DNA from: Haloarchaeobius amylolyticus
Lineage (GTDB): Archaea > Halobacteriota > Halobacteria > Halobacteriales > Natrialbaceae
Assembly: GCF_026616195.1 (NCBI RefSeq)
Contig: NZ_JANHDH010000001.1
Span: 1,550,001 to 1,614,000, forward strand
DNA: 64,000 nt
Reading direction: 5' to 3'
Shown: piece after piece, positions 41,133 through 42,628 of the stretch
Layout of the letters: every line of letters begins with the position of its first letter
Numbering within the stretch: position 1 is the stretch's first letter
Notes under the pieces: model-generated
The model's input: the letters and a program-made list of their open reading frames with translations, nothing else
Databases searched by the model: none
Told to the model about the DNA's origin: nothing
Translations under genes and position numbers: made by a program

Positions 41133-41380
41133 GTCGGTTTCTGGTTGGTTACGTTACTGCGCGCGAGACAGTAACCTACCGACCCCTCATGCACTTTCTG
41201 CGAATCCCCTCAAGGTTTTTATCGTTTATCTACTTGACGACTTACAACAACCACACAGGTCTGTTAAGTTATCCTTACTATCTAACCCCGCCGTAGTTAC
41301 TGGTGCGAAACGACAACTTGCCCACGTGCAGGGGGGTGCACGGTAATGCGTTGTCGATACACGACAGCGCGACACATATA
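41133..41380 (+). promoter_or_regulatory. A/T-rich leader of spondin-domain gene
   Basis: 248 bases between the M28 and spondin genes. A strong A/T box (GGTTTTTATCGTTTATC, 41214-41230) is followed by a second (CTGTTAAGTTATCC, about 41261-41274) and by ATATAATG overlapping the start codon at 41381. A start from the first box would leave a leader of roughly 130 bases, long for a haloarchaeon. Confidence 0.5.
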
Positions 41381-42466
41381 ATGAGCAAACACACCAACGC
41401 TGTAAACAGACGTACTGTTCTGACGACACTCGGAATCGGGGGGGCGATGCTGGTCGGCGGTGTCGGGACCGCCTCCGCGCGCGGTGGCTACCGCCGCGGC
41501 TTCTACGGTCCCACCGCGGACCCCTGTGGCACCTGTGCCCCAGCGCCCGTGTGTGAACCGCTGTGCGAGCCCGAACCCGTGTGCGAGCCCACGGTGACCT
41601 ACATCGTGGACATCTGCAACAACACGTGCGGGCAGGCCTGGACGCCGCCCGCGCTGGCCGTCCACAGCCGCTTCGCCAAGCTGTTCCAGGTGGGCACCGA
41701 GGCGTGCCCCGAACTCGCCGCGCTCGCGAAGAACGCGGACCTCGGCCCGATGATCAACACGCTGAGCACCAGCGTCGAGGACGGCGTCGACATCTTCGCC
41801 TTCGAGCTGGGCGACGACGTGGTCATGTCGACCACCGACCCGCTCAACACCGGGCTGTCGAACAAGACCACCATCGCGATCGAGGCGCCCGCGCGCTACT
41901 CGGTCCTCTCGATGGCGGCGATGATGCTCGCCACGAACGACGGGTTCGCCGGCGTCGACGCGCTCCGCCTGCCCCGCGGGCCGGGTGAGGTCGTCACCGC
42001 ACCCATCTTCGCGTACGACGCGGGTGTGGAGTGCAACAGCGAGAAGGCAGCCGACCTCGTGCAGGAGGCGTTCCTGTTCACCGACGTCGTCTCCAGTGGC
42101 AGCCAGGCCACCTCGGAGCAGGACCTCACCTGCAACGCCGAGGGCGTCGTCGACTACCACCCGGGCATCGCGGGCTGGGGCGACCTCGACTGCGTCAAGC
42201 ACGGCTTCGACGAGGTCGTCGGGACCATCACCATCACGATGGAGGCGCCCGACCCGTGCGCCGAGGTCGACCCGTGTGCCGACCCGTGTGCCGATATCGA
42301 CCCGTGCGCGCCCGTCGACCCCTGTGCGGTCGACCCCTGCGCGGACGTGGACCCGTGCGCGCCCGTCGACCCCTGTGCGGTCGCCGACCCGTGCGCCGGT
42401 GGTCTCCAGAAGACCTCGAAGAAGGGCATGCGCCGCAAGAGCACCATGCGGCGTGGCATCTACTAG
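41381..42466 (+). CDS. Tat-exported spondin-domain protein with DPCA repeats
   Basis: Secreted or surface protein of 361 residues. A twin-arginine signal (NRRTVLTTLGIGGAML, RR at 10-11) ends near TASARG. A Cys/Pro-rich stretch (about 48-71) is followed by a spondin_N-like domain (about 72-285), recognisable from WTPPALAVHSR, LAKNADLGPM, LATNDGFAGVDAL and IFAYDAGVECN. Residues 291-339 are nine DPCA units spaced by V, D, E, P or I. The last 22 residues are basic (KTSKKGMRRKSTMRR). High Cys is rare in haloarchaeal proteins. It may bind metal, cross-link, or form matrix; not established. Confidence 0.82.
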   Translation: MSKHTNAVNRRTVLTTLGIGGAMLVGGVGTASARGGYRRGFYGPTADPCGTCAPAPVCEPLCEPEPVCEPTVTYIVDICNNTCGQAWTPPALAVHSRFAKLFQVGTEACPELAALAKNADLGPMINTLSTSVEDGVDIFAFELGDDVVMSTTDPLNTGLSNKTTIAIEAPARYSVLSMAAMMLATNDGFAGVDALRLPRGPGEVVTAPIFAYDAGVECNSEKAADLVQEAFLFTDVVSSGSQATSEQDLTCNAEGVVDYHPGIAGWGDLDCVKHGFDEVVGTITITMEAPDPCAEVDPCADPCADIDPCAPVDPCAVDPCADVDPCAPVDPCAVADPCAGGLQKTSKKGMRRKSTMRRGIY

Positions 42467-42486
42467 CCTGACCTGACGACCGGTCG

Positions 42487-42518
42487 GGCCACGGTCGGCC
42501 CGTCGTCCGACCGTGGCC
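42487..42518 (+). terminator. Strong hairpin after spondin gene
   Basis: GGCCACGGTCGG (42487-42498) pairs perfectly with CCGACCGTGGCC (42507-42518) over an 8-base loop, 20 bases after the stop codon. A 3'-end stem that protects or terminates the mRNA is likely; no U-run follows. Confidence 0.55.
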
Positions 42519-42628
42519 TCGATGGGCCGGAACCCACAAGCCAGTCTGCCATTCGGGACACTCGACTGCTGTCCGGGTGACCCACCTCCGGGAGACCGGC
42601 CCGTCGCGGTCGCTGTCGTCTCCGTACG

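Follow-up and report, generated by a model that had tools for sequence, protein, structure and literature searches.

What role could a protein play in a haloarchaeon that joins a putative twin-arginine signal to a spondin domain, nine DPCA units, and a basic tail? In the window (the whole stretch of 64,000 nucleotides of Haloarchaeobius amylolyticus DNA that was analyzed), the open reading frame at 41381-42466 on the forward strand codes for such a protein of 361 amino acids, and its translation agrees exactly with the layout described in the first-pass annotation. The features of the gene are listed below by their coordinates in the window. The ortholog used for comparison is that of a congener, hereafter G328; the genome studied here is referred to as G000.

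41214-41380, forward strand: leader, with a TATA-like GGTTTTTATCG at 41214-41224 (assigned by eye) and then ∼155 nt to the ATG; from alignment with G328.
41381-41482, forward strand: putative twin-arginine signal, residues 1-34 (NRRTVL ... ASA); from the sequence and TIGR01409 (14.6 bits).
41483-41596, forward strand: GGYRRGFYG motif and Cys/Pro/Glu linker with five Cys, residues 35-72; from the sequence, with 95% identity to the G328 ortholog.
41597-42241, forward strand: spondin (F-spondin-type, C2-like) domain, residues 73-287; from NF038123, Foldseek, and conserved residues.
42251-42397, forward strand: nine DPCA units, residues 291-339; counted in the sequence and predicted to be unstructured.
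42398-42463, forward strand: basic tail GGL...MRRGIY, residues 340-361, with a C-terminal Tyr; from the sequence and the same DPCAGGL-basic-Tyr layout in the cluster proteins described below.
42477-42529, forward strand: G/C-rich hairpin at the 3' end, without a T-run; dG of -39.2 kcal/mol for 42467-42530.

The putative Tat signal proposed earlier has an RR motif (NRRTVL), a hydrophobic stretch, and an ASA site, all visible in the sequence; the TIGR01409 score lies just below the cut-off of 16.7 bits. Recalculation of positions and charges likewise upheld the nine DPCA units, which start at residues 291, 297, 301, 307, 313, 318, 324, 330, and 336 (spacing 4-6) and carry a net charge of -12, and the 22-residue tail GGLQKTSKKGMRRKSTMRRGIY, with a net charge of +8. 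In total, the protein contains 20 Cys in 361 residues, and an Asp stands beside each Cys of the array. When the array's own residues were shuffled 20,000 times, DPCA occurred at most three times, compared to nine in the protein. The nine units are written in five codon spellings with zero amino acid replacements, and the G328 ortholog keeps all 20 Cys although the unit number differs (9 versus 10). Since synonymous codons vary without any replacement in DPCA, the peptide appears to be under constraint; judged by this codon variety and by the retained Cys, the array is constrained at the protein level. The structure prediction that had been suggested for the DPCA region was run with a 22-sequence alignment: the AlphaFold model had a good core, while the array and tail were of low confidence, the array being predicted to be unstructured. 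Designed armadillo repeats, which headed a profile search of the PDB, were dismissed, as the matches were short, confined to one helical stretch, and none significant alone.

The domain between linker and array matched NF038123 with 81.2 bits (cut-off, 40; residues 73-286). By Foldseek, the model resembled mindin (3d34; E value, 2.7e-9) and F-spondin (3q13; 1.2e-7) in the PDB, with no other match under E 0.001, and on this model the fold is a C2-like FS fold of the F-spondin type. The earlier label of a spondin_N-like domain is thus borne out by NF038123 and the fold but not by Pfam Spond_N (PF06468) alone, which scored 15.9 bits, under its gathering cut-off of 24. In F-spondin, the FS domain holds Ca2+ through residues of its PSPDW and DAGTD repeats, namely D325, D354, and D358, the last by its main chain (PMC3117680). 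Alignment with mindin placed D187 (TNDGF), D213 (YDAGVE), and E217 at the positions of F-spondin D325, D354, and D358, respectively, and all three residues were invariant in 22 aligned sequences. The third position is a Glu, E217, whose F-spondin counterpart binds by its main chain only. Because the ligand positions align and are invariant, the domain probably still binds Ca2+, with D187, D213, and E217 as likely ligands. F-spondin and mindin (3Q13 and 3D34) are thus the best fold matches, with corresponding Ca2+-ligand positions, but identity to them is only 14 to 15%, and the protein has a Cys-repeat tail in place of reeler or thrombospondin domains.

To place the protein within its family, we searched 391 Halobacteria genomes, one per species and a subset of the class. 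Matches were found in 36 of the 391, nearly all of them limited to the spondin part. The protein shares the motifs TPP, TNDGF, YDAG-E-N, and PG and predicted export with prokaryotic spondin-domain proteins (NF038123; PF06468); however, Cys linker, DPCA array, and basic Tyr tail are all missing from the other haloarchaeal spondin proteins that were compared. The first-pass annotation had made its reading depend on most homologues possessing the DPCA region, and this expectation failed: 28 of 29 homologue open reading frames from other genomes were without the array, being plain, lipobox-type, CHRD-like-extended, or Thr/Glu-stalked. Only the G328 ortholog combined Cys linker, array, and basic tail. 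By this comparison, the DPCA array is not a trait of the spondin family. At three other haloarchaeal loci, the spondin domain apparently shares a chain with a CHRD-like domain (AAHIHCGGPDENGP ... GEIRGQL), as judged by eye rather than by HMM. A scan of named genomes with the protein yielded no relatives, a plasmid protein search returned only remote spondin proteins of Vibrio and Pseudoalteromonas, and none of the papers searched was relevant to spondin domains in archaea. In G328, the spondin gene lies between an M28 peptidase gene and truA, as in the genome studied here. The neighboring M28 peptidase is closest to those of Haloarchaeobius iranensis (75%) and Haloarchaeobius sp. FL176 (73%), in both of which M28 and truA are directly adjacent, with no room for a spondin gene.

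In G000 and G328, the C-terminal 73 residues of the spondin protein recur alone on other open reading frames, which are members of a tandem cluster located on a secondary replicon, with 8 genes in G000 (G000:C3 662577-668337, reverse strand) and 11 genes in G328 (G328:C2 ∼511.2-519.8 kb, forward strand). The encoded proteins are small and predicted to be exported, with closely similar signals (YRRKLLKTVGVGL...SQAVSA), and their mature parts are of low complexity and consist of Arg/Tyr/Gly-rich stretches such as YRRGFYGRRGFYGRR, GYYRGYYRPYY, and RRRRDDDD. Arg reaches 38% and Tyr 31%, Lys is almost absent, and the pI exceeds 9 in most. In one cluster gene of G000 and two of G328, 10 to 12 DPC units are encoded, after which come GGL and a basic, Tyr-ended tail. 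A C-terminal Tyr is present in 16 of 19 cluster proteins (3.2 expected) and in both spondin orthologs, and the GGYRRGFYG motif of the spondin protein also occurs in cluster proteins, so that YRRGFYG, the DPCA array, and the basic Tyr-ended tail are common to both. As far as sequences can tell, the DPCA array is a portable module carried by unrelated predicted exported proteins of both genomes. Its absence from spondin homologues therefore does not make it a nonfeature, and the sharing rules out that we are dealing with just another plain spondin protein.

The distribution of these proteins is narrow. No Pfam family matched any of ten cluster and regulon proteins, and a search of the class Halobacteria with the tail gave only weak matches outside G000 and G328 (E 3.7e-6 or worse). 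A profile of the cluster proteins found arrays in G000 and G328 only among the 391 genomes; its three weak matches elsewhere comprised two unrelated Tat proteins and, in G258, a pair of proteins that are Arg-rich and predicted to be exported. The G258 pair belongs to another haloarchaeal family, and one of its members, Arg-rich with an acidic C-terminal half, is distantly like one cluster protein. DPCA array and cluster were found only in G000 and G328 among the 391 genomes, and as these two are congeneric, the joint presence amounts to roughly one evolutionary event. The cluster proteins constitute a previously unrecognized family of predicted exported Arg/Tyr/Gly-rich proteins.

At -81 to -90, each of the 19 cluster genes has the motif AACTYSGTRGT-N6-GTAAC with ≤2 mismatches. 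Whole-genome searches with this pattern gave no matches in four congeners, and neither did the reversed pattern used as a control. Outside the cluster, the motif occurred four more times in G000 and G328 taken together, always ahead of a gene for a predicted exported repetitive protein. Three of these genes encode CRYNRRLDAYICRR Cys repeats (G000:C1 1202258-1203016; G328:C1 ∼3130.0-3132.3 kb), and one encodes a Pro/Arg-rich protein ending in HTH (G328:C1 1927360; predicted to be exported, with a PRPRPRP stretch and a HTHEPGCEKHTH end). The CRYNRRLDAYICRR-type proteins had no relatives outside G000 and G328 among the 391 genomes, and the one tested was without a Pfam match.

The surroundings of the cluster are conserved as well, with the order TatA, a 622-amino-acid protein, LonB, HdeD-like, cluster, DUF192, and RdfA being the same in both genomes. 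G000 and G328 each possess three TatA-family genes and two LonB genes, compared to two and one, respectively, in four congeners. The extra copies are those beside the cluster (G000:C3 673540-673905 and 669390-671417). A second tandem array (G000:C3 647762-656432, with at least nine paralogous genes; G328:C2 from 527785) encodes predicted exported, acidic proteins starting with MADLSKRQYLKYAGASLAALSLGVGGKLAADG, the one tested being without a Pfam match.

Upstream of the spondin gene itself, the cluster motif is absent (the best candidate had 4 mismatches, at -250), and co-regulation with the cluster was rejected on this ground; without the motif and with a conserved leader of its own, the gene shares modules with the cluster, but co-regulation is unsupported. 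The A/T-rich leader noted earlier was recovered as a relative dip in GC content (42 to 47% at 41150-41299 versus 59 to 69% on both flanks), and over 41140-41380 (241 nt) it is 93% identical to G328. Six congener genomes contained no second copy of the leader, and the cluster regions did not match it locally; the leader is therefore not shared. Within 41303-41380, no stop codon interrupts the frame between the ATG and an upstream GTG (ATG in G328), which would give both species a near-identical extension of 26 residues; because the surrounding DNA is equally conserved, this segment is probably a conserved leader rather than coding sequence. Of the strong 3' hairpin described by the first-pass annotation, the structure itself is present, but no terminator-like T-run site was found downstream of the gene, and the downstream sequence differs in G328. 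For these two reasons, the high or regulated expression that had been suggested is not supported.

We propose that the protein is a secreted Ca2+-binding structural (matricellular-like) protein tied into a coat or matrix of Arg/Tyr/Gly-rich proteins, a reading to which we assign a probability of roughly 0.45. In this reading, the protein would leave the cell through the Tat pathway, and its C2-like spondin domain would bind Ca2+ plus a surface or polymer ligand. Through its Cys-rich flanks, namely linker and DPCA array, and its basic tail with the final Tyr, the protein would become part of a coat or matrix consisting of the same organism's exported Arg/Tyr/Gly-rich proteins, some of which have the same modules. 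Disulfides between DPCA arrays may cross-link it to the cluster proteins, and Arg-Tyr contacts, surviving high salt, could add to the attachment. Against a link to the matrix speaks that the spondin gene is without the cluster motif and on another replicon than the cluster.

Linker, array, and tail might instead do no more than retain the spondin domain at the acidic surface (S-layer glycans), with no matrix involved. The opposite charges of array and tail would suit such a retention device, and as a lipobox or a Thr/Glu stalk serves for attachment in other haloarchaeal spondin proteins, it could be a lineage-specific substitute. We nevertheless consider this rather unlikely, since it leaves unexplained why the same module is found on a whole Arg/Tyr/Gly-rich family with a common promoter motif, and since plain charge attraction is weak at molar salt. 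The tandem duplications visible in the array DNA (periods of 18 to 36 nt) and the unequal unit numbers of the orthologs would also fit a functionless low-complexity sequence that recombination of GC-rich repeats has carried from one exported gene to another; conservation of all 20 Cys and the varied synonymous codons of a never-replaced DPCA are what selection on the protein would produce, and they make such neutral expansion improbable.

Even less probable is that the array acts as an extracellular, metallothionein-like metal buffer. Abundant Cys, each of those in the array with an adjacent Asp, would favor metal binding; however, the array lacks the CXC or CX2C clustering of metallothioneins, its Cys being 4 to 6 residues apart, no metal-binding family in Pfam or NCBIfam matched, and reduced thiols would probably not last in an oxidizing exterior. 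Because the module is common to an exported low-complexity family, cross-linking into a coat fits better than a stand-alone chelator. Finally, the Cys-rich C-terminal part might be cleaved off and act against other haloarchaea. Haloarchaeal antagonists are made by cleavage of exported precursors, as reported for halocin C8, where a C-terminal fragment that can act outside the cell is released (PMC12893001), and cationic and Cys-rich pieces are present here too. Yet here the array is repetitive, acidic, and predicted to be unstructured, the spondin domain would be left without a role, and no halocin family model in Pfam or NCBIfam matched up to E 1, which renders a halocin-like precursor very improbable.

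Returning to the spondin protein as part of a coat or matrix, we tentatively suggest, as a bolder and less probable extension, that two related haloarchaea have an undescribed secreted coat/matrix system. It would comprise co-regulated Lys-poor Arg/Tyr/Gly-rich and Cys-repeat proteins, a common promoter element, extra TatA and LonB, and the spondin protein docking via its DPCA/Tyr-tail module. Eukaryotic cuticle, byssus, and eggshell proteins offer a parallel, with secreted Gly/Tyr-rich families, Cys-repeat members, and tandem paralog clusters; this is an analogy only, as no sequence relationship is apparent and the proteins described here are Arg-rich, have Tat-type signals, and belong to a high-salt archaeon. 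The sharply defined promoter motif and the two sequenced species make the system directly testable. If it exists, it would represent the archaeal equivalent of extracellular matrices cross-linked through disulfides and aromatics, and the spondin domain, known from animal extracellular matrix, would find its place in a plausible archaeal one. Haloarchaeal proteins are normally acidic and Cys-poor, and an exported set of basic Arg/Tyr/Gly-rich and Cys-repeat proteins runs counter to this norm. Since very high salt screens plain charge contacts but neither Arg-Tyr contacts nor disulfides, such a set suggests a route to a stable extracellular material under these conditions.
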